This document shows, piece by piece, positions 3,448-58,699 of a stretch of 64,000 bases of DNA. Under the pieces are notes generated by a model. The model was given only the letters and a program-made list of their open reading frames with translations, had not been told where the DNA came from and searched no databases. The translations under genes and the position numbers were made by a program. The DNA comes from a candidate division KSB1 bacterium (GTDB lineage Bacteria > Zhuqueibacterota > Zhuqueibacteria > Oleimicrobiales > Geothermoviventaceae), in NCBI GenBank assembly GCA_034506315.1, contig JAPDPT010000001.1, positions 62,001 through 126,000 on the forward strand. The letters run 5' to 3'. Each line of letters begins with the position of its first letter. The stretch's first letter is position 1.

Positions 3448-4056
3448 GTGTTCGTGAACTGGGCGACAAACGAGATCATCTTCCGGATTGTGTACTGCGG
3501 TCCCTCCCTGAGCGGGAAAACGACGAACCTGAAGTACATTTACTCGAGGCTTGACCCCTCGCTCCGGGGGCAATTGGTGACCTTGCAGACGAGGGAGGAA
3601 CGCACGCTGTTTTTCGACTTTCTTCAGCTCCACCTGGGCGAAATTGCCGGAAGGAGGCCGCGCTTCAATTTGTACACGGTCCCGGGGCAGGCCTACTATG
3701 CCTATAGCCGGGGCATCATTCTGAACGGGGTAGATGGCATTGTGTTCGTTGCCGATTCCCAGAGAAGACGCCTCAGCGAGAATCTCGACGCCCTCCTCGA
3801 CTTGGAAGAGAGGCTCATCGAGCAGGGCCGGAGTATCGAGACCATTCCGTTCGTTCTGCAGTACAACAAGCGAGACTTACCCGATCTTCTTCCCATTGCC
3901 GAGTTGGAGGACAAGCTGAATTACCACAAGCATCCCGCGATTCCAGCCATTGCCACCCGTGGCGAAGGCGTAATGCAGACGTTGCGCACGCTGCTTCATC
4001 AGGTGGTGCAGAGCGTGCAGGAGCCCGTCTGTCAGGCCTATCCGAAGGCAAGCTGA
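3448..4056 (+). CDS. mglA: MglA-family Ras-like small GTPase
   Basis: A 202-residue protein that matches MglA closely. It has the P-loop GPSLSGKTTNL (residues about 19-29), the switch-I region ending TLFFDFLQLHLGEI, the MglA-specific G3 variant LYTVPGQAYY (Gln retained), VDGIVFVADSQ after it, and the G4 motif NKRD. MglA-GTP sets cell polarity and drives gliding or twitching motility in Myxococcus and related systems; homologues are also found in non-motile contexts. The GTG start directly follows the roadblock gene. No motility or pilus genes are visible in the window, so the output of this switch is open. Confidence 0.93.
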   Translation: MFVNWATNEIIFRIVYCGPSLSGKTTNLKYIYSRLDPSLRGQLVTLQTREERTLFFDFLQLHLGEIAGRRPRFNLYTVPGQAYYAYSRGIILNGVDGIVFVADSQRRRLSENLDALLDLEERLIEQGRSIETIPFVLQYNKRDLPDLLPIAELEDKLNYHKHPAIPAIATRGEGVMQTLRTLLHQVVQSVQEPVCQAYPKAS

Positions 4057-5889: not shown

Positions 5890-6160
5890 CTGAGAGTCAG
5901 GGGCTGTTCAGTTTCCGTTGCAGAGCCCTCAGGCGGCACTCAGCGATCGGCTGACGTCGGTCCAGTCTGAGAAGGGAGAGCTCGGTAGCGGAAAAGATCT
6001 ACCTCCCCGTGAATGCTGCCTCATCGGTCTACGTTCGGCTGCCGCGGGACCGGGGCGACGAACAATATGCAAAGAGTTCGCCTTGCCGGTATACACTTCT
6101 CCAGGGGATTGGGTAGCGTCCTCGCGCGCTGAGTGCGATTTCTGGGCGAAGGACAAGGAA

Positions 6161-7222: not shown

Positions 7223-7223
7223 G

Positions 7224-39588: not shown

Positions 39589-40713
39589 ATGTCCGCCGCG
39601 GAGTCATCCCCTATCCCAGGTCGGCTGCAGTCGCTCGATGCATTCCGGGGCTTTACGATCGCGGCGATGATGCTGGTCAATAACCCCGGGAGCTGGCAGC
39701 ACGTACTTCCACCCCTTCTTCACGCAGAGTGGAACGGTTGGACCTTCACCGACCTGATCTTCCCGTTTTTCCTCTTCATCGTGGGAACCGCCCTCGTGTT
39801 CTCCTTTACGCGTCGCCTGGAGCAGGGTGCGCCGCGGCGATCGCTCTACGGCAGGATGTTCCGGCGAACTTTGCTTCTCATCCTGTTCGGGCTGTTCTTG
39901 AACGCCTTCCCCAAGTTCGACTTTGAGCACCTGCGCTACCCCGGCGTCCTACAGAGGATTGGCCTGTGCTACCTGATGGCCTCCCTCGTGGTGCTGCATT
40001 TGGGAATTCGCGGTCAGGCCATAGTGGCTGCAGCCCTACTAGTCCTCTACTGGCTCCTAATGAAGCTGGTCCCGGTACCAGGTTACGGTCCGGGGGTACT
40101 GAGTCCGGAAGGAAATCTTGGAGCCTATATCGACCGCCTGGTGTTCGGGCAGCACATGTTCTGGCCGAATTGGGACCCGGAAGGCCTCCTCAGCACGATC
40201 CCCGCGGTATCGACGACCCTCCTTGGCGTCCTTACGGGCCACTGGCTCCGTACTCGCCGCGATCCCCGTGAGATCGCCGGCTGGATGTTCGTGTGGGGGA
40301 ATGTCGCGCTGGTGGCGGGCTCTCTCATGAACTTCTGGTTCCCAATCAACAAGAACCTTTGGAGTCCAAGCTACACCGTCTACACGGCCGGAGTAGCCCT
40401 CAACATGCTGGCCGCCTTCTACTGGCTCATCGACGTCAAGGGCTATCGGTCCTGGTCCAAGCCCTTTGTGGTGTGGGGAATGAACGCCATCGCCGTGTAC
40501 GTGTTCATCGGAATCCTGGCTCGGATCATGATCTTTACGGAAGTGGATTCGGGAGGGGAAACGCTGTCCATTAAGGGCTACCTGTGGAAGACGGTGTTCT
40601 CCACCCTCGGAGAACCGTGGTTTGGCTCCCTTCTCCACGCTCTGGTGTACGTGGCGATTTCGTACCTTTTCGTCTGGTGCCTGTGGCGGCGCCGCATTTT
40701 CCTGCGGCTGTAG
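39589..40713 (+). CDS. HGSNAT-like membrane acyltransferase
   Basis: A 374-residue membrane protein with about 10 helices. It starts with the family hallmark RLQSLDAFRGFTIAAMMLVNN and then HAEWNGWTFTDLIFPFFLFIVG, the segment containing the putative catalytic His found in heparan-alpha-glucosaminide N-acetyltransferase-like proteins (DUF5009/YeiB relatives). Such proteins pass acetyl groups from cytosolic acetyl-CoA across the membrane to sugars, which would fit polysaccharide or envelope modification. GAGGAGG lies 10 nt before the ATG. It precedes the SppA-type gene by 53 nt on the same strand. Confidence 0.9.
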   Translation: MSAAESSPIPGRLQSLDAFRGFTIAAMMLVNNPGSWQHVLPPLLHAEWNGWTFTDLIFPFFLFIVGTALVFSFTRRLEQGAPRRSLYGRMFRRTLLLILFGLFLNAFPKFDFEHLRYPGVLQRIGLCYLMASLVVLHLGIRGQAIVAAALLVLYWLLMKLVPVPGYGPGVLSPEGNLGAYIDRLVFGQHMFWPNWDPEGLLSTIPAVSTTLLGVLTGHWLRTRRDPREIAGWMFVWGNVALVAGSLMNFWFPINKNLWSPSYTVYTAGVALNMLAAFYWLIDVKGYRSWSKPFVVWGMNAIAVYVFIGILARIMIFTEVDSGGETLSIKGYLWKTVFSTLGEPWFGSLLHALVYVAISYLFVWCLWRRRIFLRL

Positions 40714-40766
40714 CTCACGGCGCACGCGGTAGTCAAGAGGCCAATTGGAAACGTAAGGAGTTCCCG

Positions 40767-43163
40767 ATGAGAGCGAGAACGCTGGCCGGCCTTGGGGCAG
40801 CCCTTTTGGCTCTTCTGAGTGGCGCGGCAAGCTTGGCCCAAAGTCGCCCCCCAGCGCAGGAGCTTCTGTCTGCTCCGGTGTCCATTCTGGACCACGGCCT
40901 CCTGGGCTTGCTGAATCCTGCAAACGTGGCGTTCCTGCCGTCGGCGGAGGTGAGGTATTACGGGTGGGCCGCTCCCCCGTATCGGCGCGGCCTGGTTGTG
41001 GCAGCATTCCCTGGCATCGGCTTCGCTTCCGGCCACGTCCCGGGCCCCGAAGGCGCCCGACCGATCCACGCGGTGTGGATGGGAAGCCGGGGCCGCCTTC
41101 TGGGATTTGGTGCCGGCTACCAATGGCAAGAGGGAGTTCCACGCAAGTCAGCCCGTCTCCTGACCGGCGGAACGCTGATACAGCCGAATGGCTGGCTCTC
41201 TCTCGCGGCGTACGGGGGAGCCTCTGACAAGGGCGACTGGGAGCAAAGGGCCCTCGAGCTGGCGGTCCGGCCCTTCGCCGACGAGCGGCTGTCCCTTGGT
41301 GTCTCCTATGTCGTCCCTCACCAGAGCCGGTGGCGTCGGGGGAGCTGGTTTGCCGGTGCCCTCCTGAGACCTGCCCCCGGGGTATCCCTCGGCCTGGGCC
41401 TCGAGGAACGGTCGCATTACCGTGTAGCCCTGACGCTCCAGGCCGGTCCCCTTTCGCTTTCGGGCGGCCATGTTTCGGCGACGGATCGGACCGTGTACGC
41501 GGCGCGAATCGGCCGCGGGCGGCGGGCGGACCTGGCCAGTGCCCTTTCGCCCCGGAGCGAGATCGTCAAGATCGAACTGCGCGGGAAACTTGACTACCTC
41601 CGGTACACGCTCTTTGACCGCGGCACCCACCGCCTTCTGGACCTCATTCGCGACTTGCAGCTGGCCGAGAACGATCCGCACGTCGGGGCCGTGGCGCTCC
41701 ATCTCTCCGGGGCAGCGATCCCGGCCGAGATGAGCTGGGAGCTTCGCACCGAGCTCCTTCGCCTCCGGTCCGCAGGCAAACGGGTGGCGGTCTTTCTGGA
41801 CGAGGGCGACATCATCAGCTACTGGCTGGCCACAGGCGCCGATCTTGTGGTCATGGACCCGGAGGGACAGATCCAGCTTTCCGGCTTCGTCACCGGAAGG
41901 ACGTATCTCAAACACGCGCTCGAGAAGTTGGGCCTGGGATTCCAGGAGCTGCGCTTTTTCCGCTACAAATCGGCGGCGGAAACCTACGCCAACGATCGTT
42001 TTTCGGAAGCCGACCGAGAGCAGAGGAGTGCCTATCTCGATGACGTCTACGAGACCGTGCGACAGGAGGTCTGTACAGGCCGCGGCTGGACTCCTGCACG
42101 TTTCGACTCGTTGGTGGACTACGTTACCATTTTCCTGGCCGAAGACGCCGTTCGGCTCGGTCTGGTAGATACGGTAGGTCGCTGGCGAGATCTGGATTCG
42201 ATCGTGGCTAAGAAGCTCGGCCGCCGCTACCGAGCGGTACCTCTCGCGCGCCTCCGAGGACGTGTCCCAGCCGACACCTGGGGCCCCACGCCCCGTATCG
42301 CCGTGGTCTACGCCCTCGGCCCCTGTGACCTGGACACCGGTATCCGGGCGCGGTATCTGGAGAGGATCCTTGACCAGCTCGCCCGACGGAGGGACATCCG
42401 CGCCGTCGTGTTCCGTGTGGATTCGCCCGGAGGGCTCATCGTGCCTTCGGACATGGTGGCCCAGGCCCTGCGGCGTTGCCGCGAGAAGAAACCCGTGGTG
42501 GTCACCCAGGGCAGCGTGGCCGGCTCCGGAGGCTATTGGATTTCCGCCCTCGGCGACACCATCTTGTCCTCCCCCCTGACGATCACCGGATCCATTGGAG
42601 TGATCGGCGGCTGGCTTTACGACAAAGGATTCGGCGAGAAGCTCGGCCTCACCTCCGATTTCGTCAAGCGCGGAGAGCACGCGGATCTGCAGCACGGGGT
42701 GACCGTGCCGTTCCTCGGAGTCACCGTCCCTCACCGGCCCCTCACGGAGGAGGAGTTCGGACGGCTGCGCGAGGGCATCCTGCAGATGTACGCTCACTTT
42801 GTGAAGCTTGTAGCCCAGGCCCGAAAGCTCTCGGAAGACAGCGTGCGCGTTATCGGAGAGGGGCGGATCTACTCGGGTCTTGACGCCGTGCAGATAGGCA
42901 TTGTGGACCGGATCGGGACTTTCAGCGACGCCCTTGAACTCGCCCGCCGTATGGCCGGGATTCCCCCCAACCGGGAGGTCGAGATCCTCGAGTTCCCGCG
43001 CACCAAGGGGTTCTTCCCGCCCGTACTGGGGGCGCAAAGTCGAGCCACGGCAGAACTGCCCCAGGACGTTCTCTGGTTTGTCCGCACGTTCGCCAAACAC
43101 CAGGCGCAGCCGCTGGCGATCCTGGCCCCGGACCTGCTTCCCCTCGACCCAGCAGGTCCGTGA
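40767..43163 (+). CDS. sppA: SppA-type S49 protease fused to an N-terminal barrel-like region
   Basis: A 798-residue protein with a signal peptide (about 1-25, ending LAQ). Residues about 30-265 read as amphipathic beta-strands (GRLLGFGAGYQWQ, GWLSLAAYGGAS, LSLGVSYVVPH, VSLGLGLEERSHYRVALTLQAGPLSLSGGHVS), like a membrane barrel rather than protease. From about residue 270 a tandem S49 unit follows, with catalytic Lys in FRYKSAAETY and nucleophile Ser in AGSGGYWISALGD, then LTITGSIGVIGGW, as in long SppA. SppA digests cleaved signal peptides in the inner membrane; the extra N-terminal part suggests a different location. Start 40767 has GTAAGGAG upstream. Confidence 0.9.
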   Translation: MRARTLAGLGAALLALLSGAASLAQSRPPAQELLSAPVSILDHGLLGLLNPANVAFLPSAEVRYYGWAAPPYRRGLVVAAFPGIGFASGHVPGPEGARPIHAVWMGSRGRLLGFGAGYQWQEGVPRKSARLLTGGTLIQPNGWLSLAAYGGASDKGDWEQRALELAVRPFADERLSLGVSYVVPHQSRWRRGSWFAGALLRPAPGVSLGLGLEERSHYRVALTLQAGPLSLSGGHVSATDRTVYAARIGRGRRADLASALSPRSEIVKIELRGKLDYLRYTLFDRGTHRLLDLIRDLQLAENDPHVGAVALHLSGAAIPAEMSWELRTELLRLRSAGKRVAVFLDEGDIISYWLATGADLVVMDPEGQIQLSGFVTGRTYLKHALEKLGLGFQELRFFRYKSAAETYANDRFSEADREQRSAYLDDVYETVRQEVCTGRGWTPARFDSLVDYVTIFLAEDAVRLGLVDTVGRWRDLDSIVAKKLGRRYRAVPLARLRGRVPADTWGPTPRIAVVYALGPCDLDTGIRARYLERILDQLARRRDIRAVVFRVDSPGGLIVPSDMVAQALRRCREKKPVVVTQGSVAGSGGYWISALGDTILSSPLTITGSIGVIGGWLYDKGFGEKLGLTSDFVKRGEHADLQHGVTVPFLGVTVPHRPLTEEEFGRLREGILQMYAHFVKLVAQARKLSEDSVRVIGEGRIYSGLDAVQIGIVDRIGTFSDALELARRMAGIPPNREVEILEFPRTKGFFPPVLGAQSRATAELPQDVLWFVRTFAKHQAQPLAILAPDLLPLDPAGP

Positions 43164-43636
43164 CAAATCACGACTCCGGATCTTGAGCAGCCAAACCGGG
43201 AGCAAAGCAACCCGCGCACAGGCGACCAAATGAAGCAACGCCAAAGCACCCGGTAACTCTCCGAACATCCTGAGGGGCGCGAGACGGGGGCAAGAAAGCT
43301 TTACGAGCCCGGGCTTCGGCCTGGAGGGGGCCGCGGGGGCAAACGGAGTCCCTGGGTTAGGGAAAGGGGCGGTCCCGATCGTCTCGACTGCGAGCATCTC
43401 ATCAGGTGAGAGAGGGCCCGCCGCGTGGTAGGGCGCCCGAAAGGCGACACCTACCGCGCAGGACGGGGGTGCAGGCTTCTCCGGACAACTCCACGAGGCA
43501 CGTCCCGCCGGGGGTTCCGAGATACCCGAAGCCAGCCGCTCTTAGCCCCCAACAGCTAGGATCCTCGCGCCAATCCCGTGTAGCGGGGTGGCTTCCCGGC
43601 GCAGTCCAGAGCTCCCGACGCGGCTTCGCGCCGATG

Positions 43637-43653
43637 TGTTCAAAAATTTGACA
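43637..43653. promoter_or_regulatory. Inverted-repeat site 1, candidate enhancer (UAS)
   Basis: TGTTCAAAAATTTGACA, a near-palindrome with half-sites TGTTCAAA and TTTGACA. Its reverse partner at 43797-43813 matches at 13 of 17 positions. The centre is about 300 nt upstream of the sigma-54 promoter. Confidence 0.55.
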
Positions 43654-43796
43654 CGCGGCGGTTCGGTCAGGGCTCAGGACGGCACCGCTCCGGCTCCCCC
43701 TTGATTCCGTCCGACATCCCCTGCCGAAAACGAAGCCCCGCACCCCTTCTCGATTTCCGGCTCCACTCGCTCGCTTTGGACAACAGCTTTTGACGC

Positions 43797-43813
43797 TGTG
43801 CAAGATTTGAACA
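43797..43813. promoter_or_regulatory. Inverted-repeat site 2, candidate enhancer (UAS)
   Basis: TGTGCAAGATTTGAACA, embedded in CTGTG...CACAG, giving arms CTGTGCAA / TTGAACACAG. The site lies exactly 160 nt from site 1 (start to start) and about 120 nt upstream of the -24 element, a usual range for NtrC-type activator sites. Confidence 0.55.
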
Positions 43814-43924
43814 CAGCGCTCAACGACCCTGTCGCTCTTGGCTGGAAAGAGAAGCTTTAACCTTTTCGAAGAGCCCTGGATCGAGCCTGGCGACCTTGCA
43901 GATAGGCGGGCGAAATCAGGCTCT

Positions 43925-43941
43925 CTGGCACGATCATTGGG
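43925..43941 (+). promoter_or_regulatory. Sigma-54 (-24/-12) promoter of the polysaccharide locus
   Basis: CTGGCACGATCATTGGG against the consensus YTGGCACGrNNNTTGCW: every defined position matches except C-to-G in the -12 'GC' and the last base. The GG-N10-GG spacing is correct. Predicted start near 43952, about 80 nt before the first gene. Confidence 0.6.
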
Positions 43942-44032
43942 GAAAGCCTTCAGAGCAAGGCGGGGCCGGAGGGGTTGGAGGCGGGCTTTCGGGGGCATCC
44001 ACAGGCCCTACAGGCACAAGAGGGAAAAAGAC

Positions 44033-44722
44033 ATGCCGCACAGTGAGGCTACCCCAGTGGTCGGTCCCGAGGAGCGTCGTCCGCGCGTCCTGATTGTGGA
44101 CAGCAGCACGGGGGGTGCGGAAGTTTGCGCTGATGTGCTGACGCGATGGGGTTACGAAGTGTGGATTGCCTCCACGTTTGAGGAGGCCATGGACCGCGTG
44201 GGGCAATCGGAGTTCGATGTGGCGATTGTAGAATTGCGGCTGCCCGAGGGGGCGGGCTATCGCCTGATCGAATCCCTGCGAGCCTTATGGCCCGATCTGC
44301 CCATTATCGCCACCGCGCACATCCCATCCGTGGGCAGTGTAGCCAAGGCCTTCAAAGTCGGTGCGCACGACTATCTCGGCAAGCCTTACAGCGCCGCAGA
44401 GATACGCGTCCGCATCGACGAGGCGCTGCGATTGAAGTCTTTGCGGCAGCAGGAGCAATCCCTGCTCAAGGTGATGAACGAAAAGGCCGCTCGTATCGCG
44501 ACGATTTTCTCCACCCTGGTCTGGAAGCTGCGTCCCGACGGCCCTCCTTTGCGATTGGAGGACGACGTCCAATCGCTTCGGAATCTCTCGAACGAGCTCG
44601 CCGACCTCAGCGCCAAGCTTGTCCGACTGCGATCGGCGCGACGACGGTGGCGAGAGATGGACATTGACTCCCCCCACGACGCTGGCTGCGGGGCCTTGGG
44701 CCCCCAGGAGCAGCTGGAGTGA
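44033..44722 (+). CDS. Pseudo-receiver regulatory protein (degenerate response regulator)
   Basis: A 229-residue protein. Residues about 17-135 form a receiver fold (RVLIVDSSTGG, phospho-site region IVELRLPEG, T94, K117 in LGKPYS). The phosphorylatable Asp is Glu67 and the acidic pair reads Asp23-Ser24, so normal phosphorylation is not expected; Glu may mimic the phosphorylated state. The C-terminal part (about 140-229) is helical, possibly coiled coil (LKSLRQQEQSLLKVMNEKAARI, LRNLSNELADLSAKLVRL), with no DNA-binding or enzymatic domain recognised. It is the first gene after the sigma-54 promoter, 90 nt before the chain-length/tyrosine-kinase gene. Confidence 0.85.
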   Translation: MPHSEATPVVGPEERRPRVLIVDSSTGGAEVCADVLTRWGYEVWIASTFEEAMDRVGQSEFDVAIVELRLPEGAGYRLIESLRALWPDLPIIATAHIPSVGSVAKAFKVGAHDYLGKPYSAAEIRVRIDEALRLKSLRQQEQSLLKVMNEKAARIATIFSTLVWKLRPDGPPLRLEDDVQSLRNLSNELADLSAKLVRLRSARRRWREMDIDSPHDAGCGALGPQEQLE

Positions 44723-44812: not shown

Positions 44813-47077
44813 GTGACCGCGAAAAGTTTGACCTTCCGGGATCTGGTGCAGGTCCTTGACAAGCGGAAAAAGGTCCTGCTGCTGAGCCTCGCCGCCTGCC
44901 TGGTGCCTATGGTGATCTACAACGAGAAGACGGTCCCGGTGTACATGGCCCAGGCCAAAATCGTCTTCGAGAACTACCCCACCGGCCAGACGATCGGCCT
45001 CGATATCATCTCGCCCCTGGCACGCCAGAATTACATCGCCAATCGCCTGGAGGAGATGCGCACCGTTGCCTTCGCGCGTCGGGTGGCAGCAGCCTTGCCC
45101 GACAGCATTACGGAGAAGATCCTGAGCACGGCGGACGTCAGCAAGCTGCGTAATCTCCGGGGCTATCCCATCGCGTACATCCGAAAGCGCCTGGATGCGC
45201 GCCTCATCCAGGGGACCGACGTGGTGATGGTCTCTTTCGAGTCCACGGACCCCGTCGTGGCAGCCACCGTCACCAACGCCGTTATCGACGTCCTGCAGCG
45301 CAGCAATCTCGAGCAGCGCCGGCAGGAATACACGGCCCTCCGCAGCTTTGCTGATGAGCAGCTTTCGGTTGTGGAACGCAGGCTCCGAGAGGCGGAAGAC
45401 GCCCTCAAGGCCTTCAAGGAGAGGGAAGGAATCGCCACCCTCGACGGCGAAGCCACGGAAATCCTGGAGCGGATGACCCAGGCAGAGGTCCTCCTGAACA
45501 ACATCCGCTCCGAGATGGAGGCCAAGCAGCGCAAGCTCACTCTCCTGCGGCAGCAGATCGAGACCGAAAAGAAAGACCTTCCGAGCACCGTCACGTCGCT
45601 CAGCACCCCCATCACCGAGAAACTCAAACAGCGGCTGGTAGAGCTGGAGACCACCTACGCCAAGCTCCAGGCCCAGAACTATCCCGCCGACCACCCCAAA
45701 CTGGTGGAAATCCGCAACGACATCGAGCAGACCAAGGCGAACCTGGTCCAGGAGACCATGCGGCTCGTACAAGATGAGAAGCTGCAGGGCCTTCTGGACC
45801 CGCTGGAGCAAATCGGCGAGAATCTCAAGGCCTCGGTGGCCCTCGAGGTGGAGATTCAGGGCTTGGCCGCCCAGCGGGACGAGCTCCAGAAACTGATGGC
45901 CACGTACGAAGAGCGGTTGCGGAAACTGCCGGAGCAGGAGGTTACCCTCGTACGCCTGCAACGGGAGCTCGAGGTCAACAATAAGCTGTTCCAGACCCTG
46001 TACGAGGAAAGGGAGCGGGCGCGGATCCGCGAGGCGGCCGAAATGGGCACCATGCGGGTTATGGAGCGCGCGGCGGTACCCACCACGCCCGTCCGACCCC
46101 GCAAGGTCTTCAACCTGCTGATTGCCATTGTCGCAGGTCTGGTGATCGGATTTACCGTGGCCTTGACGCTCGAAGTTCTGCACGACAGGCCCGAGACGCC
46201 GGAGGACGTTCAGACCTTCACCGCGCTGCCTGTGCTGGCTTCCATCCCGCGCATCCAGCGGGGGATCCTCTGGAACGGGAGCGTCAAACCCCTCGTAGGC
46301 GCCGAGACGGGAACACGCGGCCAGCGCTCCGTCTTGCACGACGCCTACGATCTCCTGTGGAGCTCGTTCCATTTCGCGCTGGACCGGAACGCGCGGATCA
46401 TCATGGTCACCTCTTCGATCCCAGGGGAAGGCAAGTCGACCGTAGCGGCCAACCTGGCGATCCTGGCTGGGAAAAGGGGCCTGAGGACCATCCTGGTGGA
46501 TGGCGACCTACGCAAGCCGATGCTCCACCAGTTCCTGGAAGTGCCCCGCCAGCCCGGGGTCAGCGATCTCCTGGAGGAGATAACCCAGATCCTGTCCGAT
46601 CGCCGCAGCCTCGACCAGTACCTCTCCACGCGCCCGGAGGAGATCTACACCTCGGAGACTGTCGAACTGGGGCCCATAGTGGAGAGCTTCCTCAAGCCCA
46701 CGCAGTTTCCGAATCTCCAGTTCCTGCCGGCAGGGAGCCCTTCAAGCGATAGCGCAGGGATGTGGTTCATGCCGGAGTTTTCGATTCTGCTCCGGGCGCT
46801 GCGCGAGAGGGCCGCGCTGGTCATCCTGGACATGCCGCCCTCACTCGGCCTCGCCGACGCCAATGTGGCCGCGCGCCTGGCCGATGGCATCCTTTTCTGC
46901 ATCGCCGCCGGGGAAACCGAACGCCGCACCATCCAGCGCGCCCTCGCGAATCTGGAAAAGACGAAGGCCAGAATTATCGGCGTCGTCCTCAACAAGGTGA
47001 ATCAAACGATGGTCTACGGCAGCAAGAAGTACTACAAGTACTACAGCCGCTACTACGCTTCGGAGAAGACCAATTGA
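44813..47077 (+). CDS. Wzz-type chain-length determinant fused to BY-kinase
   Basis: A 754-residue protein. It has an N-terminal Wzz domain with membrane helix at about 22-40 (VLLLSLAACLVPMVIY), long periplasmic coiled coil (about 170-400), and second helix at about 440 (NLLIAIVAGLVIGFTVAL). A cytoplasmic tyrosine autokinase follows, with Walker A SSIPGEGKSTVAANLA, Walker A' ILVDGDLRKP and Walker B LVILDMPPS. The C-terminal tail has seven Tyr in the last 20 residues (YYKYYSRYY), the autophosphorylation cluster. It controls polymer length and export in Wzx/Wzy systems. GTG start. Its stop overlaps the next gene's TTG start. Confidence 0.95.
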   Translation: MTAKSLTFRDLVQVLDKRKKVLLLSLAACLVPMVIYNEKTVPVYMAQAKIVFENYPTGQTIGLDIISPLARQNYIANRLEEMRTVAFARRVAAALPDSITEKILSTADVSKLRNLRGYPIAYIRKRLDARLIQGTDVVMVSFESTDPVVAATVTNAVIDVLQRSNLEQRRQEYTALRSFADEQLSVVERRLREAEDALKAFKEREGIATLDGEATEILERMTQAEVLLNNIRSEMEAKQRKLTLLRQQIETEKKDLPSTVTSLSTPITEKLKQRLVELETTYAKLQAQNYPADHPKLVEIRNDIEQTKANLVQETMRLVQDEKLQGLLDPLEQIGENLKASVALEVEIQGLAAQRDELQKLMATYEERLRKLPEQEVTLVRLQRELEVNNKLFQTLYEERERARIREAAEMGTMRVMERAAVPTTPVRPRKVFNLLIAIVAGLVIGFTVALTLEVLHDRPETPEDVQTFTALPVLASIPRIQRGILWNGSVKPLVGAETGTRGQRSVLHDAYDLLWSSFHFALDRNARIIMVTSSIPGEGKSTVAANLAILAGKRGLRTILVDGDLRKPMLHQFLEVPRQPGVSDLLEEITQILSDRRSLDQYLSTRPEEIYTSETVELGPIVESFLKPTQFPNLQFLPAGSPSSDSAGMWFMPEFSILLRALRERAALVILDMPPSLGLADANVAARLADGILFCIAAGETERRTIQRALANLEKTKARIIGVVLNKVNQTMVYGSKKYYKYYSRYYASEKTN

Positions 47078-48114
47078 GCGGCCTATCTACACCCGTCGGG
47101 CTGAGCCAGAGCGGGGATGGGAGGGGAAGTCTCCGGGGAAGGCGGGTCCTGGTCACAGGGGCCGGAGGCTTCATTGGGAGCCACCTCACGGAGGCCCTTC
47201 TGCGCGAAGGGGCGGAGGTGCGCGCCTTCCTGCGCTACAACTCCCGGAACACGCGGGGCCTCCTGGAGGAGCTTCCTGAAGGGGACCTGCGCGAAATCGA
47301 GATCATCTTCGGCGACCTCAAGGATCCGGCGGCGGTGAACCGGGCCGTGAAAGGCGTTGAGGTGGTCTTTCACCTCGGTGCTCTGATCGCCATCCCCTAT
47401 TCCTACCTGAACCCCACGGATTTTGTCCAGACCAACGTGCTCGGCACGCTGAACGTGCTCAATTCCTGCCTGGAGTACGGGGTGGCGCGCCTGATCTGCA
47501 CGTCCACCAGCGAGGTGTACGGCACCCTGCGCTACGCGCCCATGGACGAGGACCACCCCCTCGACGCCCGTTCTCCCTACGCAGCGAGCAAGGTAGGAGC
47601 CGATCAGCTGGCGCTCAGCTATCACCGGGCCTTTGGGCTGCCGGTGACGATCCTGCGGCCCTTCAACACGTACGGTCCCCGCCAGTCCCTACGCGCCGTG
47701 ATCCCGACCATCCTGGTGCAGGCCCTGCGATCGGAGGTCGTCTACCTCGGGGCCCTTCACCCAACCCGCGACTTCAATTACGTGACGGATATCGTCGATG
47801 CTTTCCTGCGCGCGGCTACCGCGCCCGGGATCGAGGGTGAGATCGTCCACGTCGGGACCGGACGCGAGGTCTCCGTGCGGGAGCTTTGTGAGGCAGTGGG
47901 CAGGGTGCTCGGTGTCAAGGTGAAGGTGGTACAGGATCAACGGCGTTTGCGCCCTGCGGAAAGCGAGGTGCTGCGCTTGGTGTGCAATCCGGCCAAGGCC
48001 CGGAAGCTCCTGGGTTGGGAGCCTCGGGTCTCCCTGGAGGAGGGACTGGCCCGAACGGCACGTTGGATCCAAGAGCATCTGCCGGTGACCGACCCCAGCT
48101 ACTACCACGTGTAG
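47074..48114 (+). CDS. LegB-like NAD-dependent sugar-nucleotide 4,6-dehydratase
   Basis: A 346-residue extended SDR: VTGAGGFIGSH, then FHLGALIAIPYSYLNP, TSTSEVYG with catalytic Thr/Ser region, SPYAASKVGADQ (Tyr-xxx-Lys), RPFNTYGPRQS and ALHPTRDFNYV. These blocks closely follow LegB, the UDP-GlcNAc 4,6-dehydratase of legionaminic acid synthesis, as I remember it. No LegI/LegG are seen, so the product probably feeds a 4-amino-sugar (with the aminotransferase two genes on) rather than legionaminic acid. TTG is the only start near the overlap, with GGAGAAG upstream; the first 20 or so residues are non-conserved. Confidence 0.85.
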   Translation: MSGLSTPVGLSQSGDGRGSLRGRRVLVTGAGGFIGSHLTEALLREGAEVRAFLRYNSRNTRGLLEELPEGDLREIEIIFGDLKDPAAVNRAVKGVEVVFHLGALIAIPYSYLNPTDFVQTNVLGTLNVLNSCLEYGVARLICTSTSEVYGTLRYAPMDEDHPLDARSPYAASKVGADQLALSYHRAFGLPVTILRPFNTYGPRQSLRAVIPTILVQALRSEVVYLGALHPTRDFNYVTDIVDAFLRAATAPGIEGEIVHVGTGREVSVRELCEAVGRVLGVKVKVVQDQRRLRPAESEVLRLVCNPAKARKLLGWEPRVSLEEGLARTARWIQEHLPVTDPSYYHV

Positions 48115-48171
48115 CAGGCTTCCAATCGCCGCCGGCGCTCCCACTGGGCCGGCGGCCGTTAAGGACATCAA

Positions 48172-48912
48172 ATGAACGTGCGCAAGAGGGGCTTGGAGAT
48201 GCAGGCGATCATCATGGCCGGCGGCTGCGGGGTAAGGCTGGCACCGTACACAACGGTCATCCCAAAGCCCTTACTCCCAGTGGATGGGATGCCCATTGTG
48301 GAGATCATCATTCGGCAGCTGCGCAATCACGGCTTCGATCGCGTTACCCTGGCGCTGGGGCATCTTGCCGACTTGATCCGCGCCTACCTCGGCGACGGAT
48401 CCAAATTTGGAGTGCGCATCGAATACTTCGTGGAGACGCATCCCCTGGGGACCATTGCCCCCCTGGCCCTCGTCGAGAACCCTGAGCCCCACTTCTTGGT
48501 GGTCAACGCGGATCTCCTGACCAACTTGAACTATGCCGACATGATCCGGTACCACCTCTCCAACGGCGCCCTGGCCACCGTAGGGACCTACGAGCTCCGG
48601 GTGCCCATTGACCTTGGGGTGGTGGAGACCAACGGGGACTCCCTCATCACCGGGTTCCAGGAGAAACCCCGCGTAGCGCTCAAGGTCAGCATGGGGGTGT
48701 ACGCTTTCGATGCCCGGGTGTGTCAATACCTCGAAAAGGGCCGCCCTATGGATTTTCCGGAGCTGTTGCGCATCCTCCTGGAGAGGGGGGAAAAGGTGAT
48801 CTCCTATCCGTTTCGGGGCTACTGGCTGGATATCGGCCGCCACTCTGATTACGCCAAGGCCATTGAGGAATTTCGATCGATACGCACGGAGCTTGGCATC
48901 GATGTCGAGTAG
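48172..48912 (+). CDS. Sugar-1-phosphate nucleotidyltransferase
   Basis: A 246-residue protein with the nucleotidyltransferase signature AIIMAGGCGVRLAPYT followed by PKPLLPVDGMPI (G-G-x-G-x-R-L ... P-K-P), and metal-binding Asp in VVNADLLTN. Length and pattern fit the single-domain NTP_transferase family (RmlA/GMP-pyrophosphorylase-like without C-terminal hexapeptide domain). The base and sugar are unknown. AAGGA lies 7 nt before ATG 48172; 48199 (MQAII) is an alternative start. It sits between the dehydratase and aminotransferase, so it may activate a related sugar. Confidence 0.85.
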   Translation: MNVRKRGLEMQAIIMAGGCGVRLAPYTTVIPKPLLPVDGMPIVEIIIRQLRNHGFDRVTLALGHLADLIRAYLGDGSKFGVRIEYFVETHPLGTIAPLALVENPEPHFLVVNADLLTNLNYADMIRYHLSNGALATVGTYELRVPIDLGVVETNGDSLITGFQEKPRVALKVSMGVYAFDARVCQYLEKGRPMDFPELLRILLERGEKVISYPFRGYWLDIGRHSDYAKAIEEFRSIRTELGIDVE

Positions 48913-50035
48913 CTGGCGATTTCCTCTGAGTGACCTGAGGCTGGGACCGCGAGAGCTGGACTCGGTGCGAGCGGCGCTCGAATCGGGCTGGCTCAGCCAG
49001 GGTCCGGTGACGGCTCGCTTTGAGGCGGCCTTCGCGCAGTACGTGGGAGCGAGGTACGCCGTCGCCGTCTCCAATGGGACCGCAGCCCTCCACCTCGCCT
49101 ACCGCGCCCTGGGAGTAGCCCCGGGCGATCAGGTGATCTGTCCATCTCTGACCTTCGTCGCCACCGTGAACGCCGTCCTGTACTGCGGCGCCGAGCCGGT
49201 ATTTGCGGAGATCCTCGACCTCGACCACCCCGTGCTGGACGCGGAGGATGTGGCGCGGAAGCTCACGCCGCGAACCCGCTGCATCGCCGTCGTCGATTAC
49301 GGCGGTTACCCCTGGGAGATCGAAGCCGTGCGCGAAGTGGCCCGAGCCGCTGGGATCCCCCTGGTCGAAGACGCCGCTCACGCCGTGGGGGCCTCCCGGA
49401 ACGGCCGAAAGTTCGGCACCTTTGGCGACGTGGGCTGCTTCAGCTTCTTCTCCAACAAGAACATGACCACCGGCGAGGGGGGGATGGTAGTGACAGACAA
49501 CGAAGGCATCGCAGCCCGAGTCCGCCTCCTTCGCTCCCACGGGATGACGGCCGGCACCTGGGAACGGCATCGCAGCGGTCAGGCCGAGTACGACGTGGTG
49601 GACATCGGCTACAACTACCGCCTCGACGAGATGCGCGCCGCCCTCGGGCTGGCCCAACTGGCCCTCCTCGACGAGTACAACCGCAAACGGCAGGCCCTGG
49701 TGGCCCGCTACTGGGAAAACCTCGGAACCTGCGAGGCGGTCCGGCTGCCGTTCTTCGGACGGCTCGAAGGCAGCGCCTGTCACCTCCTCCCTGTACTCAT
49801 TCCGAGCTCCCAGAACCGTCGGCAGTTCGTGGCCTACCTACAGCAACACGGCGTACAGACCAGTCACCACTACCCTCCCGTCCACAAGCTGAAAGCGTAT
49901 CGTGACCGTTACCCGACTTCCCTGCCCGTAACGGAGGAGTTTGCGGCTCGGGAGGTCACGCTTCCTCTGCATCCGCACATGAAGTTGGAAGACGTGGACC
50001 AGGTGTGTGATATCGTTCGTCAGGCTCTGCAGTGA
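48902..50035 (+). CDS. DegT/DnrJ/EryC1/StrS-family aminotransferase
   Basis: A 377-residue PLP enzyme: WLSQGPVTARFEAAFAQYVG, SNGTAALHLAYRALGV (phosphate-binding), VEDAAHAVGA, PLP Lys in SFFSNKNMTTGEGGM, IGYNYRLDEMRAALG, and the C-terminal HHYPPVHKL. It transfers an amino group to a 4-keto (or 3-keto) NDP-sugar; with the LegB-like enzyme it would give a 4-amino-4,6-dideoxy sugar. ATG 48902 overlaps the preceding stop by 11 nt and GGAGC lies upstream. Confidence 0.94.
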   Translation: MSSSWRFPLSDLRLGPRELDSVRAALESGWLSQGPVTARFEAAFAQYVGARYAVAVSNGTAALHLAYRALGVAPGDQVICPSLTFVATVNAVLYCGAEPVFAEILDLDHPVLDAEDVARKLTPRTRCIAVVDYGGYPWEIEAVREVARAAGIPLVEDAAHAVGASRNGRKFGTFGDVGCFSFFSNKNMTTGEGGMVVTDNEGIAARVRLLRSHGMTAGTWERHRSGQAEYDVVDIGYNYRLDEMRAALGLAQLALLDEYNRKRQALVARYWENLGTCEAVRLPFFGRLEGSACHLLPVLIPSSQNRRQFVAYLQQHGVQTSHHYPPVHKLKAYRDRYPTSLPVTEEFAAREVTLPLHPHMKLEDVDQVCDIVRQALQ

Positions 50036-51510
50036 AGCCGAAAGCGGGAAGAAAAGGCTCGAGATCCCGGAAAAAGCACGGGGATAAGGCGCCCTGGGCC
50101 GATCGGCTGGTGGCCGCCTTCGGGCTCTTGCTCCTGGCGCCTGTTTTCGCGCTGATCGCCGCCGCCATTAAGCTGGAATCTCGGGGACCTGTGTTCTACC
50201 GCCAGGTGCGCATCGGCAAGGATGGGCTTCCTTTTCTCTTGTACAAGTTCCGGAAGATGCGGCATGGACTGGAGGTGGGACCGAAGATCAGCCCGCGTAA
50301 CGATCTGCGTTTGACGCGCGTGGGCCATCTGCTCGAGCGCTGGAAGCTGGACGAGCTTCCCCAGCTGATCAACGTCCTCCGCGGGGAGATGCGGATTATC
50401 GGCCCGCGGCCGGAAGTCCCGGAAATCGTCGCCCTGTACACCCCTCGCCAGCGGCGGGTCCTTCGGGCTTGGCCTGGAATCACCGGCCCCTGCCAGATTC
50501 GCTGGAGAAACGAGAAGGAGCTGATCCCGCCAGACATCGAAGACGTGGAAAGCTACTACGTACGCTTCATCCTGCCGGAGAAGCTGGAAACGGATCTGGA
50601 ATACCTGCGCCGGCGCACCTGGTGGACAGACATCCAGCTCCTGGCTCAGACGGTGTGGGTGACCCTTTTCGAGCCCCTCCAGCCCAAATACCTTGCGCGG
50701 AGGCTGAATTTCGCCGCCCACTTGGCAACCGATGCCCTGCTCCTGGGAGCAGCGGCCGTGGCCGCCTCCTCTCTGCTCGCCCCCCTGGAGCGATTGGAAG
50801 AGCAGCTGCGGATCCGGCTGCCGGTGGCCCTCGTCCTTGCAGCAGCCCACTACCTGGGCTTCCTGATCTCCGGAGTCTCCTATCAGAGCTGGAGGCTTGT
50901 CGGCAAGTCGGATCTCCTCCAGCTTGCCGCCTCGCTGCTCGGCTCCAGTCTGGTGGCCGCACCTGTAGCTCTGCTCTGGCTTCCGGACTGGTGGGACGGT
51001 GCCCGGCTTCTTGTTCTGAGCTACACCTGGACCATGTTGCTGGCGGGCGGAGGTCGATTTGCGCTGGCCATCCACGAGGAGCGGAGGCACAAGACGAGCT
51101 CGTCCGCCCCGCCCGTAGACGTGGTGCTGTACGGCGTGAATCGGGAAAGCGAGTTTTTCCTGCGGCGGGTTGAGTTGGGGCTCGAGCCGGGCGTGCGGGT
51201 GCTGGGATTTCTGGACAACGATATCCGCAAGAAGGGAATGCGCATCCGCAAGGTCAAAGTCCTGGGGACAGCGGCCGACCTCTCGCTTCTCCACAGCCTG
51301 CGGAAGATCGCGGCGGTGTACGTCTTCACCGAGCCGGCAGATCCCGCCTTCGCGCAGGTCCGCCGCCAGTGCTCGAAACTGGGGATCGAACTCCGCAGGG
51401 GCCTCCCGTCCACGAGCCCGGCAAATCGGGCCCCCCTGCCGCGATCGGTCGGCCCTTTCACGCCCGAGACGGGGACTTCTACCTTTCACTCATCGGAGAT
51501 AGGGAGATGA
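50032..51510 (+). CDS. Phosphoglycosyl transferase with C-terminal membrane and Rossmann-like domains (permuted order)
   Basis: A 492-residue protein. Residues about 20-210 are a PglC/WcaJ-type bacterial sugar transferase: single membrane helix LVAAFGLLLLAPVFALIAAAIK, GPVFYRQVRIG, KFRKMR, WKLDELPQLIN (catalytic Asp-Glu), GPRPEVPE and RAWPGITG. Four helices follow (about 225-345), then a CoA-binding/Rossmann-like domain (VDVVLYGVNRESEFFLRRV, GVRVLGFLDNDIRKKG, AAVYVFTEPAD). In WbaP/WcaJ the four helices and Rossmann part come before the catalytic domain, so the order here is reversed. The expected role is loading the first sugar phosphate onto undecaprenyl phosphate. GTGA overlap with the gene upstream. 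Confidence 0.9.
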   Translation: MKPKAGRKGSRSRKKHGDKAPWADRLVAAFGLLLLAPVFALIAAAIKLESRGPVFYRQVRIGKDGLPFLLYKFRKMRHGLEVGPKISPRNDLRLTRVGHLLERWKLDELPQLINVLRGEMRIIGPRPEVPEIVALYTPRQRRVLRAWPGITGPCQIRWRNEKELIPPDIEDVESYYVRFILPEKLETDLEYLRRRTWWTDIQLLAQTVWVTLFEPLQPKYLARRLNFAAHLATDALLLGAAAVAASSLLAPLERLEEQLRIRLPVALVLAAAHYLGFLISGVSYQSWRLVGKSDLLQLAASLLGSSLVAAPVALLWLPDWWDGARLLVLSYTWTMLLAGGGRFALAIHEERRHKTSSSAPPVDVVLYGVNRESEFFLRRVELGLEPGVRVLGFLDNDIRKKGMRIRKVKVLGTAADLSLLHSLRKIAAVYVFTEPADPAFAQVRRQCSKLGIELRRGLPSTSPANRAPLPRSVGPFTPETGTSTFHSSEIGR

Positions 51511-51998
51511 AGCGCCTTTTCCTCATCATGATCTTGCTTCTCCTCCAGGTGGTGAGGGCACAGGCCCAGGAGGAAATACAGAGCCTGATCCGACAGGATC
51601 GTCCGTCGCGCTACTACATCGGCAAGGAGGACGAGCTCCTGATGCCGGTGAATGTGCTCGGCTTCGTGGCCAAGCCGGGCCAGTACCTGGTGCCCAGCAA
51701 CACCGATCTGGTTTCGCTGATCGCCTACGCGGGAGGCTTCATCGAGGGGGCCAGGCCAAACCGCGTGAAGATTGTGCGCAGCTACCACCAGAGTAACGAG
51801 CCGCCGGTCCTGTGGGTGGACATGGACGAATATTTCAAGACCGCAGACCGGAATCTCTTGCCCAGCCTGAAGCCCGATGACACGATCATCGTTGGAGGAT
51901 CTAAAGGGTACACGTTCCGCCGGGTGATGGACTTCATCGCCCGGCTGACCATCCTGGCGCAAATCTACTTCTACATCAGCGTGGCCAGACGACAGTAG
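51507..51998 (+). CDS. Small SLBB-domain polysaccharide export protein
   Basis: A 163-residue protein with a signal peptide (LFLIMILLLLQVVRAQAQ). One SLBB beta-grasp domain spans about residues 45-130 (VLGFVAKPGQYLVPSNTDLVSLIAYAGGF, RVKIVRSY, LKPDDTIIVGG), then a C-terminal hydrophobic helix (about 138-158). Unlike Wza it has no N-terminal PES domain and only one SLBB repeat, so it cannot form a whole Wza channel by itself. It is probably a periplasmic component of the export path with the Wzz/BY-kinase. ATGA overlap with the sugar transferase and GGGAG upstream. Confidence 0.85.
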   Translation: MKRLFLIMILLLLQVVRAQAQEEIQSLIRQDRPSRYYIGKEDELLMPVNVLGFVAKPGQYLVPSNTDLVSLIAYAGGFIEGARPNRVKIVRSYHQSNEPPVLWVDMDEYFKTADRNLLPSLKPDDTIIVGGSKGYTFRRVMDFIARLTILAQIYFYISVARRQ

Positions 51999-52056
51999 CC
52001 CCAGTGCGGATAAGAAGGGATAGAACCCAAATTCAGCTCAAGCAGCGAGGGAATTC

Positions 52057-52953
52057 ATGACGTCTTCCGGCCGCTCGGTGCCGCTTGTCAGCGTGGGGAT
52101 GCCCGTGTTCAATGGGGAGAGGTACGTCGCCGAAGCGATCGAATCGATCCTCAACCAGACCTTCCCCGATTTCGAGCTCATCGTTTCCGACAACGCCTCG
52201 ACGGATCGGACGGCGGAGATCTGCCAGGCGTACGCGCAGCGTGATGCGCGGATCCGCCTCTACCGCTCCGACAAGAACCGGGGCGCAGCCTGGAACTTCA
52301 ACCGCGTCTTCTGGCTTGCGCGGGGGCGGTATTTCAAGTGGGCGTCATCGGACGACCTATGCCACCCGGAATACCTGGCGTCGTGCCTTCCGATCCTCGA
52401 GGCCGACCCCGGCGTGGTCCTCTGCTATGGGCGCACCCAGATTATCGACGAGCAAGGCCGCTTCGTCCAAGATTACTCCGACAACCTGCACTTGGACCAG
52501 GATTCTCCGGCAGAGCGGTTCTCCTCTTTTCTCCGGCAGGTTGGGCTTTGCAATCCGGTGTTCGGGGTTATCCGGGCCAAGGCATTAGCGCAGACACGCC
52601 TGCTCGGCGCCTTCCCTGGGTCCGACACCTGTCTCCTGGCTCATCTGGCCCTCTTGGGGAAGTTCGTGCAGGTTCCAAAGGTCTTGTTCTACCGCCGTTT
52701 TCACTCAGAGGCGTCCAGCGCCAAGAAGGATCTTCAAAACCAGATGGCCTTCTTCGACCCGCGCCGGGAGGTCAAGGTAGCCATGCCGGCCTTGCGCCGC
52801 TGGCTCGAGTTCGTGCGCGTTGTGGGCCAGAGTGGGCTGCCGGCTGGCGAACGACTCCGGATTTATCTTCGGCTGGCAAGGACGTTTTTCTGGTGGCGGG
52901 ATGTGTTCGGTCAGGAGTTCCGGGCGGCGGTGGCCGCGGCGGCCCAGGCCTGA
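52057..52953 (+). CDS. Family 2 glycosyltransferase
   Basis: A 298-residue GT-A enzyme: VSVGMPVFNGERYVAEAI, SILNQTFPDFELIVSDNASTD (nucleotide binding), FKWASSDD (metal-binding DxD-like) and a C-terminal acceptor part with RRFHSEASSAK. No membrane helix, so it acts at the cytoplasmic face on the lipid-linked sugar. GAGGGAATTC before ATG. Follows the SLBB gene by 58 nt. Confidence 0.92.
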   Translation: MTSSGRSVPLVSVGMPVFNGERYVAEAIESILNQTFPDFELIVSDNASTDRTAEICQAYAQRDARIRLYRSDKNRGAAWNFNRVFWLARGRYFKWASSDDLCHPEYLASCLPILEADPGVVLCYGRTQIIDEQGRFVQDYSDNLHLDQDSPAERFSSFLRQVGLCNPVFGVIRAKALAQTRLLGAFPGSDTCLLAHLALLGKFVQVPKVLFYRRFHSEASSAKKDLQNQMAFFDPRREVKVAMPALRRWLEFVRVVGQSGLPAGERLRIYLRLARTFFWWRDVFGQEFRAAVAAAAQA

Positions 52954-53025
52954 CGGTCCGCCCTGGTCTTGAAGGTGCGCCGAGAGGGGGAAGCGGTCTC
53001 TGAAACAAAAGGAGGGTGATCGGCA

Positions 53026-53796
53026 ATGAAGGTGGCCATTCTGGCAGGAGGTATGGGCACCCGGCTTGCCGAGGAGACGGAGGTCAAGCCCAAACCGATG
53101 GTGGAGATCGGTGGCAAGCCGATCCTGTGGCACATCATGATGCACTACTCCTACTACGGCTTCAAACACTTCGTGATCGCGCTGGGCTACAAGGGCGAGG
53201 TCATCAAGAAATACATGGTGGACTATTGCTCTCTGAACAGCGACCTCACGGTAAACCTTCGCACCGGCGAGGTCAAGATCATGGGCGGCTATAAGCCGGA
53301 CTGGACCGTGGAGCTGATCGACACGGGCGTGCCCACGGCCACGGGCGGACGCATCAAGCGCCTCAAGCCCTACCTCGACAACGGGACCTTCTTTCTCACC
53401 TGGGGCGACGGCGTTTCGGACATCAACCTCCACGACCTGCTGCGCTTCCACAAATCCCATGGCAAGCTCGCCACCCTGACCGCTGTCCGTCCACCTGCCC
53501 GCTTCGGCCACCTCGAGCTCGACGGCGACCAGGTGGTGGAGTTTTCCGAGAAACCGCAGACGAAAGAGGGATGGATCAACGGCGCCTACTTCGTCCTCGA
53601 GCCGGGCGTGTTCGACTACATTGACGGCGACGACACGCAGTTCGAACGAGAGCCGCTGGAGCGTCTGGCACGGGACGGGCAGTTAATGGCCTACCGGCAC
53701 ACCTCCTTCTGGGCCTGTATGGACACCCTCCGCGACAAGAAACGGCTGGAGGAGCTGTGGCAGTCGGGCAAAGCGCCGTGGAAGATCTGGGAGTGA
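53026..53796 (+). CDS. rfbF: Glucose-1-phosphate cytidylyltransferase
   Basis: A 256-residue protein matching RfbF across its length: AILAGGMGTRLAEETEVKPKPMVEIGGKPI, HIMMHYSYYGFKHFVIALGYKG, GEVKIMGGYKPDWTVELIDTG, TGGRIKRL, LTWGDGVSDI and the C-terminal GSFWACMDT-like segment (TSFWACMDTLRDK). It makes CDP-glucose from CTP and glucose-1-phosphate, the entry to CDP-3,6-dideoxy and branched CDP-sugars. It has an exceptionally strong ribosome-binding site (AAGGAGGGTGATC). A dedicated RfbG dehydratase is not seen; the next gene is another SDR. Confidence 0.96.
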   Translation: MKVAILAGGMGTRLAEETEVKPKPMVEIGGKPILWHIMMHYSYYGFKHFVIALGYKGEVIKKYMVDYCSLNSDLTVNLRTGEVKIMGGYKPDWTVELIDTGVPTATGGRIKRLKPYLDNGTFFLTWGDGVSDINLHDLLRFHKSHGKLATLTAVRPPARFGHLELDGDQVVEFSEKPQTKEGWINGAYFVLEPGVFDYIDGDDTQFEREPLERLARDGQLMAYRHTSFWACMDTLRDKKRLEELWQSGKAPWKIWE

Positions 53797-53800
53797 CAAC

Positions 53801-54841
53801 ATGCGCGTCCTCGTAACGGGACACAGGGGCTACATCGGAAGCGTTCTGGTCCCCATGCTTCAGAGCCGGGGGCACGAAGTGGTGGGTCTCGACAGCGACC
53901 TTTATCGTCGTTGCACCTTCGGCGACGGCCTGCCCGACTGTCCCAGCATTGAGAAAGACATCCGGGATGTGGAGCTTTCTGACCTGCGAGGCATGGATGC
54001 GGTCATCCATCTGGCGGCGCTGTCCAACGACCCCCTTGGCGATCTGGACCCAGAGCTCACGCTGGAGATTAACCACCGGGCCAGCGTACGCCTCGCCAAA
54101 CTGGCCAAACGAGCCGGGGTGGGCCGATTCCTCTTCTCGTCGTCCTGCAGCATCTACGGCGCTTCCGGCGAGGAAATGGTGGATGAAAACGGCGCGTTCC
54201 GTCCCGTCACCCCCTACGGCCTCTCCAAAGCCCTCGTGGAGAGGGACGTGTCCCGGCTGGCCGACGACTCCTTCTCCCCCGTCTTTCTTCGCAACGCCAC
54301 GGTCTACGGTCTTTCCCCCCGCATTCGCTTCGACCTCGTTCTGAACAATCTGGTAGCCTGGGCTTTCACGACGGGAAAAGTGTTCCTCAAGAGCGACGGC
54401 ACACCCTGGCGACCCATCGTACACGTGGAGGATGTGTGCCTGGCCTTCGCGTGCGCGCTGGAGGCGCCCCGCCAATTGGTGCACAACCAGGCCTTCAACG
54501 TGGGGCGGACCCAGGAGAACTATCGCATCCGCGAGCTGGCCGACATCGTGAAGGACGTCGTGGTGGGAGCCGAGATCGAGTTCTCAGGAGAGGCGGGGCC
54601 GGATAAGCGCTGCTATCGCGTGAACTGCGACAAGATTCTGCGGACCCTCCCCGCTTTCCGGCCCCGATGGACCGCCCGTGAGGGCGCTGAGCAACTCTAC
54701 GAGGCCTACAAGAAGAACGGGCTGGCTCTCGAGGATTTCGAAGGGCCGAGGTACAAACGAATTGACCATGTCAAGTGGCTCCTCTCGCTGGGGGCTCTGA
54801 CCCCGAAGTTGAGGTGGAGGAATGAACGCATCGTCTGCTGA
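53801..54841 (+). CDS. NAD-dependent epimerase/dehydratase (SDR) of the CDP-sugar cassette
   Basis: A 346-residue extended [64 protein letters not shown] (Tyr-xxx-Lys), and [22 protein letters not shown]. Directly between rfbF (4 nt) and a C-methyltransferase (20-nt overlap), it presumably works on a CDP-glucose-derived sugar, for example as reductase, epimerase or dehydratase. It does not have the typical RfbG opening, so it is not called CDP-glucose 4,6-dehydratase. GGGAG lies inside the end of rfbF. Confidence 0.88.
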
Positions 54842-56111
54842 GACAGCCGCGCGGAAAAACCTGGACTGCTGGTCTGCCCTCTACACGACAATCGACCGCT
54901 GCCGGGCCTGCGGCAGTCCGCATCTGGATCCAATCCTCTATCTGGGTGAGACCCCTCTGGCGGACCGTCTGCTGACGCCGCGGACCCTCCAGCTGCCTGA
55001 GCCACGCGTGCCTCTCACAGTCCTGTTTTGCCGCGACTGTTCGCTTCTGCAGATCCGAGAGACCGTCCATCCTGAAATCCTCTTCGGGGACGACTACCCC
55101 TATTACTCCTCCGTCTCGCCGACCCTGCTGGCGCATGCGAGGGCCAACGCTCTGGAACTCATCCAAACGCGGGCGCTGGGGCCATCCTCCTTCGTCCTCG
55201 AAATCGCCAGCAACGACGGATATCTGCTGCGCAACTTCGTGGCTGCGGGGATCCCCTGTCTGGGGGTCGATCCAGCCAAGGGGCCAGCCGAAGCCGCAAG
55301 GAAAGTCGGCGTCCCCACGCTGTGCACGTTCTTCAATCTGGAGCTGGCCCAGGACCTTGTGCGCGAGGGGCGCCAGGCAGACGTTGTGTTTGCCAACAAC
55401 GTGCTGGCCCACGTGGCGGACCTCGGAGGCCTTGTGGAAGGGATAGCCACCGTCCTCAAGGATCGGGGCGTCGCCGTGATCGAGGTTCCCTACGTCCTTG
55501 ACCTGGTCGAGCACAACGAGTTCGACACCATCTATCACCAGCACCTCTGCTATTTCTCGGTCACGGCGCTGAGCCAGCTATTCCGGCGCCATGGTCTCTC
55601 CTTGAATGACGTCCGCCGATTGTCCATTCACGGCGGGTCTCTGCGACTCTACGTCGAGAAGGTGGAACAAGTCCGACCCAGCGTCCTGGAGCTCCTGGCT
55701 CTTGAGGAGGAGCGTGGACTGACGCAGCGTTCCTACTACGCCGACTTCGCCTCGCGGGTGGAGAAGATTCGTACCCAGCTCGTCGGTCTTCTGGAAGCGC
55801 TCAAGACGGCAGGTGCCCGGATTGTTGGTTACGGCGCAGCCGCCAAGGCCAACACCCTAATGAGCTACTGCGGAATCGGCGCCAACTATCTCGACTACCT
55901 GGTGGACCTCAATCCGCACAAGCACGGCCGCTACATGAGCGGGAATCGCCTCCCCATTCTGCCGGTGGACACCATCCTTCAGGATCGTCCGGACTATCTG
56001 CTCATCTTAGCCTGGAACTTTGCGGACGAGATCATGCAACAGCAGGAGGCTTACCGTCAGATGGGAGGAAAGTTCATCATTCCCATTCCGGAGCCAAGGG
56101 TTGTCGAATAG
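54822..56111 (+). CDS. NDP-sugar C-methyltransferase-like protein (1 of 3)
   Basis: A 429-residue TylCIII/TcaB9-type protein. The N-terminal zinc-binding segment is [25 protein letters not shown] with a second CRDC pair; SAM-binding [15 protein letters not shown] follows (about 128-142). The catalytic region is [16 protein letters not shown], and the C-terminal domain has [16 protein letters not shown] and [16 protein letters not shown]. Known members methylate C3 of keto-sugars to make branched deoxysugars; all key segments look intact. GGTGGAGGA precedes the ATG. Confidence 0.92.
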
Positions 56112-56174
56112 GCACAGGAACGGCCGCCGCGGGCTCCGTCGCTGCGCGGGGGCCACATCGAGAGGCGTGTGCAT

Positions 56175-58615: not shown

Positions 58616-58699
58616 ACCGACCCGTGTTGACAGAGCACCAAGTCCTGAAGGAAAAGGCTTCCGCCACGGGAAGACAGCACACAGGAAAGGAGCGCACCG

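Follow-up and report, generated by a model that had tools for sequence, protein, structure and literature searches.

A probable sigma-54-type promoter with paired upstream sites ahead of a long polysaccharide gene run in a candidate division KSB1 genus

The window analysed here, a stretch of 64,000 nucleotides from a genome of 3.41 Mb (G000), contains a large cluster of polysaccharide genes. An S49 peptidase gene (40584-43163, plus strand) is followed by a gap of 869 bp between its stop codon (43163) and the ATG at 44033, a gap longer than the 400-bp span given in the initial annotation, and then by a long run of co-directional genes. The first gene of the run (44033-44722, plus strand) codes for a response regulator with a receiver domain and without a recognised DNA-binding domain; the C-terminal stretch of its product, about 100 residues long, contains no recognised output domain. 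The second gene codes for a Wzc-like chain-length determinant/tyrosine kinase (44813-47077, plus strand), and further co-directional polysaccharide genes follow with short gaps (47104-63416, plus strand), encoding a dehydratase, nucleotidyl transferases, a DegT aminotransferase, a sugar transferase, an SLBB protein, glycosyltransferases, methyltransferases, an Asn synthase-like protein and a Wzx-like flippase. The run passes the end of the window and reaches approximately window coordinate 69985, its gaps being mostly short, and polysaccharide functions are found throughout, as the initial annotation had proposed for the genes downstream of its predicted promoter. In a comparison genome of the same genus (G001, MAG RSWS12) the gene order is identical, with the S49 peptidase gene (65% identical and used as the synteny anchor upstream of the gap), the response regulator gene (ortholog at E=2.4e-48), wzc and then the polysaccharide genes in the same order. 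A longer open reading frame, 43838-44722, would extend the first gene N-terminally across the promoter described below; this was rejected, since the G001 frame has a TAG inside the -24 element and the coding signal begins only near 44033-44057.

The gap contains a putative -24/-12 (sigma-54) promoter element, TGGCACGATCATTGG, at 43926-43940 on the plus strand. The initial annotation had described CTGGCACGATCATTGGG, which begins at 43925, as a near-consensus element that lacks the C at -12, and both its letters and its coordinates are correct: read directly, GG occupies 43927-8, and ten bases further on GG stands where GC would be expected. The C at -12 of sigma-54 promoters is usually close to invariant. 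TGGCAY with the GG at -24, as in a sigma-54 promoter, is conserved in G001, where the element reads TGGCATAGTCCTTGG (TGGCAY-N5-TTGG), and the GG in place of GC at -12 is likewise found in both genomes. Transcription of the polysaccharide run is predicted to start at about 43952, and a short GC-rich stretch at the predicted transcript start (43954-43972, plus strand; GCAAGGCGGGGCCGGAG here and GCATGTCGGGGCGGGAG in G001) is kept at 14 of 17 positions. No sigma-70-type site was found within 43400-44200, in line with the initial annotation, which had reported none in the gap, and an Rfam search of the gap matched no family. Alternatively, a sigma-70-like promoter of an unfamiliar type may operate in this little-studied phylum.

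Upstream of the promoter element lie two enhancer-like sites, site 1 (TGTTCAAAAATTTGACA, 43637-43653, plus strand), the dyad of which is widened by its flanks to 43636-43654, and site 2 (TGTTCAAATCTTGCACA in its minus-strand reading, 43797-43813). Direct reading confirms what had been claimed for these inverted repeats, that is, a mutual match at 13 of 17 positions and a location about 310 and 150 nt before the start; their centres are about 307 nt (site 1) and 147 nt (site 2) upstream of the predicted start. The ideal form of the 17-bp dyads is approximately TGTYCAA-N3-TTGRACA, and, as is expected of NtrC-type upstream activator sites, they are paired, roughly 80-300 bp upstream and conserved in position. 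With zero or one mismatch, sites 1 and 2 are the only copies of the 17-bp motif in the 3.41 Mb of the genome, site 1 being its sole match without mismatch, and the sites are therefore not chance matches; with two mismatches, its genome-wide frequency is about equal to that of the control. The check suggested in the initial annotation, a genome search for the motif upstream of other -24/-12 promoters, gave no matches with up to one mismatch other than those at 43637 and 43797. In G001, the match without mismatch sits at the orthologous promoter together with its partner site, and this genome has one additional match, with a single mismatch. Convincing copies of the motif are present at no other place in either genome.

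How much weight the promoter call can bear depends on comparison, since the -24/-12 counts are at background and the call needs outside support. A loose -24/-12 search of the window gave 220 matches vs 226 in shuffled sequence, and the strict pattern TGGCAY-N5-TTGS occurs 22 times genome-wide vs 20 for the reversed control, that is, without enrichment; a -24/-12 match by itself proves nothing. These single-sequence statistics are what speaks for a chance origin, in which promoter and sites would both be non-functional. Against this stand the specificity of the motif for one promoter genome-wide and the colinear conservation of all three elements at fixed spacing. The intergenic DNA of the two genomes is largely unalignable apart from the conserved elements, and the G001 region carries TGTTCAAGAATTAGACA (site 1), TGCTCAAATTTTGAACA (site 2) and the promoter element. 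The distance from site 1 to site 2 is exactly 160 bp in G000 and G001 alike (measured between the 17-mer registers), and site 2 starts 129 bp (G000) or 128 bp (G001) before the promoter. Among all 17-mers of the two gaps, site 1 matches best (15/17), and site 2 (13/17) falls on its diagonal; across 300 dinucleotide shuffles, the best match in the colinear band never exceeded 13/17, vs the 15 observed. We therefore consider a chance origin highly improbable. The comparison supports a functional promoter with its sites far better than a single sequence could, and the initial reading of a sigma-54 promoter with two enhancer-like sites is strengthened by an architecture conserved in G001 at near-fixed spacing. 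Among 63 genomes of the class, the two orthologous promoters were the only matches to the composite pattern of promoter and site 2; the comparison thus goes no deeper than the two genus members, and the footprint rests on this one pair.

The G at -12 can be set against other promoters of the genus. Intersecting the strict-pattern matches of G000 and G001 gave eight orthologous promoter pairs, of which three have TTGG in both genomes (the polysaccharide locus, a type IV pilin gene and an unknown gene whose product begins MKELLYF); the remaining five, at a second polysaccharide locus, flgB, genes for an Hsp20 and a ParA-like protein and a gene cluster that includes MWFFS..., have TTGC in the two genomes alike. 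Because orthologous pilin, flgB, hsp20 and other genes carry the -24/-12 pattern in both genomes, sigma-54 use is normal in this genus, and because the same TTGG is conserved before the pilin gene and another gene, we read G at -12 as a probable lineage variant that is tolerated and conserved; a pilin gene from a different class of the phylum has TTGG in front of it as well. Promoters with TTGG stay TTGG between the genomes and the others stay TTGC, which may point to a promoter subclass. Before the flgB promoter, two conserved stretches lie at about 151 and 122 bp, one of them a dyad resembling GGCAATATTTGCC, and these are possibly the sites of a flagellar enhancer-binding protein (EBP).

The second polysaccharide locus has a canonical -24/-12 element, TGGCACRGCTMTTGC, on the minus strand in both genomes (G000:C2:27109-27123 and G001:C19:30627-30641). 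From its first base it is about 60 nt to the start codon of a Poly_export/SLBB gene, behind which comes a Wzz/Wzc-like gene; the locus also encodes an epimerase, a sugar transferase and a UDP-glucose dehydrogenase, and its promoter is situated behind a STAS-domain gene. Comparison of G000 with G001 identified no conserved enhancer upstream of it.

The machinery for sigma-54-dependent transcription is present. The initial annotation had named absence of rpoN as evidence that would speak against its reading; a single rpoN gene is present, intact and full length, and its product has ARRTVAKYRE as the DNA-recognition box. G000 and G001 each encode 13 EBPs in which the sigma-54 interaction domain is complete, and all 13 of G000 have counterparts in G001. 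The promoter and the paired sites are, judged from these comparisons, very probably a real switch, and we consider it likely that transcription of a long polysaccharide operon, with the gene for the receiver-only response regulator in first place, is driven from a sigma-54 promoter to which two NtrC-type upstream sites are dedicated. In the mechanism that we infer, RpoN-RNA polymerase would bind the -24/-12 element at 43926 and remain closed; an activated NtrC-type EBP would bind the two 17-bp dyads as dimers, centred about 147 and 307 bp upstream, assemble across both, loop to the polymerase and open the complex by ATP hydrolysis, and promoter opening would turn on the run of genes from the response regulator onwards as a single presumptive operon. 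The 17-bp, N3-centred dyads at -147 and -307 share their geometry with known EBP sites (SypG, PEP-CTERM motif 1).

Instead of an EBP, another kind of regulator may occupy the dyads, such as a repressor that acts by looping or an activator of sigma-70 transcription, in which case the -24/-12 match would not be a working promoter. Such an arrangement would accommodate the missing C at -12, the fact that the strict -24/-12 pattern is no commoner genome-wide than the control, and the candidate status of the activator. It accounts poorly, however, for the -24/-12 element itself being kept at a fixed distance in G001, for the recurrence of the TTGG form before other orthologous genes, and for the location of the dyads at about -147 and -307, which is enhancer range and not that of promoter-overlapping repressor positions; we regard it as improbable.

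No EBP gene adjoins the polysaccharide locus. The regulator to which the initial annotation had pointed is an NtrC-type EBP (7224-8621, plus strand) whose gene adjoins a histidine kinase gene (5918-7222, plus strand). In the same part of the window, at 2940-4056, Roadblock/LC7 and small GTPase (Gtr1/Arf-like) genes lie next to each other and resemble an MglB/MglA pair. The 7224 EBP is the nearest EBP to the locus, about 36 kb upstream, and its G001 ortholog (75% identical) is syntenic and at a similar distance. Contig C1 contains only two strict -24/-12 matches, at the pilin gene and the polysaccharide locus, and only two full EBP genes, one near the pilin gene and the 7224 gene; with one EBP gene beside the pilin gene, 7224 would be left for the polysaccharide promoter, which favours this assignment and does not prove it. 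In G002, a genome of the same family that is 85% complete, the polysaccharide locus is apparently missing, as is the 7224 EBP, and no close ortholog of the S49 neighbour was found. Clear orthologs of the EBPs L055, L057, L059, L060 and L062 were not found in this 85% complete genome either, so that genus-specific presence reduces the 13 EBPs to six co-distributed candidates, 7224 included. Going by the first residues of neighbouring proteins, L055 seems to be respiratory, L059 to be linked to hydrogenase and L060 to sugars.

That the kinase/EBP pair at 5918-8621 is the activator, a narrower form of the preferred reading, is the strongest single assignment, although less likely than not. It is favoured by proximity, by syntenic order at a similar distance in G001, by the pairing of EBPs and promoters on C1 and by its apparent absence from G002 together with that of the S49 ortholog; it is weakened by the at least five other EBPs that share this distribution, by the generality of synteny in this region and by the incompleteness of G002. 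In addition, the 7224 EBP has GAFTSA in place of GAFTGA in its loop in both genus members. A survey (PMC3162934) gives S as a putatively functional residue at this position; a literature search on the word 'GAFTSA' found nothing by that word. The 7224 regulator of the initial annotation is a candidate activator that shares its distribution with at least five other EBPs.

Several known systems resemble the arrangement described here. In Vibrio fischeri, the 18-gene syp polysaccharide locus is under the control of the sigma-54-dependent response-regulator EBP SypG (PMC10162802, PMC4517449), and the present locus, a polysaccharide cluster directly behind a sigma-54-type promoter, is syp-like in its probable sigma-54/EBP control and its N3-centred upstream sites. 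In contrast to syp, where the regulator is known and its motif is TTCTCA-N3-TGMDWN (PMC10162802), the sites here differ from the SypG motif, the -12 element is TTGG, there is no EBP beside the locus and one promoter was found ahead of the gene run. In Proteobacteria, PEP-CTERM genes associated with PrsK/PrsR have a large intergenic region with a 17-nt motif, sometimes repeated, and a -24/-12 element; the predicted targets of PrsR, itself an NtrC-type EBP, are sorted proteins, and Aquincola EPS genes appear RpoN-independent (PMC1569441, PMC9850573). The arrangement of a 17-nt upstream site with a -24/-12 element is similar, whereas site sequence and spacing differ, the PEP-CTERM motif 1 ending in TTTACA and lying about 63 nt before motif 2. 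Scanned alone of the 13 EBPs, the 7224 protein was rejected as PrsR (TIGR02915, 414.6 vs a cut-off of 502.6 bits). EBP-type control of polysaccharide genes is also known from DVU0110 and DVUA0057 of Desulfovibrio vulgaris, EBP response regulators to which exopolysaccharide and biofilm operons with sigma-54 promoters have been assigned (PMC4641369); they belong to another phylum and are likened here by regulon, not by binding motif. In Burkholderia cenocepacia, BerB and RpoN govern the biofilm exopolysaccharide and so likewise combine an EBP with RpoN, but the control is indirect and works by transcription of berA, a regulator gene (PMC5552954). More generally, a 2011 cross-genome survey links sigma-54 to the bacterial exterior (PMC3162934). 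The suggestion that control of an entire polysaccharide locus by an EBP would be a distinct regulatory plan is therefore not upheld, as such control is already known (PMC10162802, PMC4641369, PMC3162934).

What we describe is a well-supported case of a known type of switch, with a possible lineage-specific variant at -12. A bolder proposal, that there is a distinct TTGG subclass of sigma-54 promoters for surface structures (pilin and polysaccharide) and that a dedicated activator serves the polysaccharide operon and no other target through two sites kept exactly 160 bp apart, is in our view rather unlikely. If TTGG is indeed conserved as a functional form, standard GG/GC scans would overlook real sigma-54 promoters in this lineage. 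The elements described here provide base-level targets for the putative regulatory switch of a long polysaccharide operon from a lineage that has received little study; if both promoters are real, two polysaccharide loci would be under sigma-54 in this genus, and the link between sigma-54 and the bacterial exterior would extend to this lineage.
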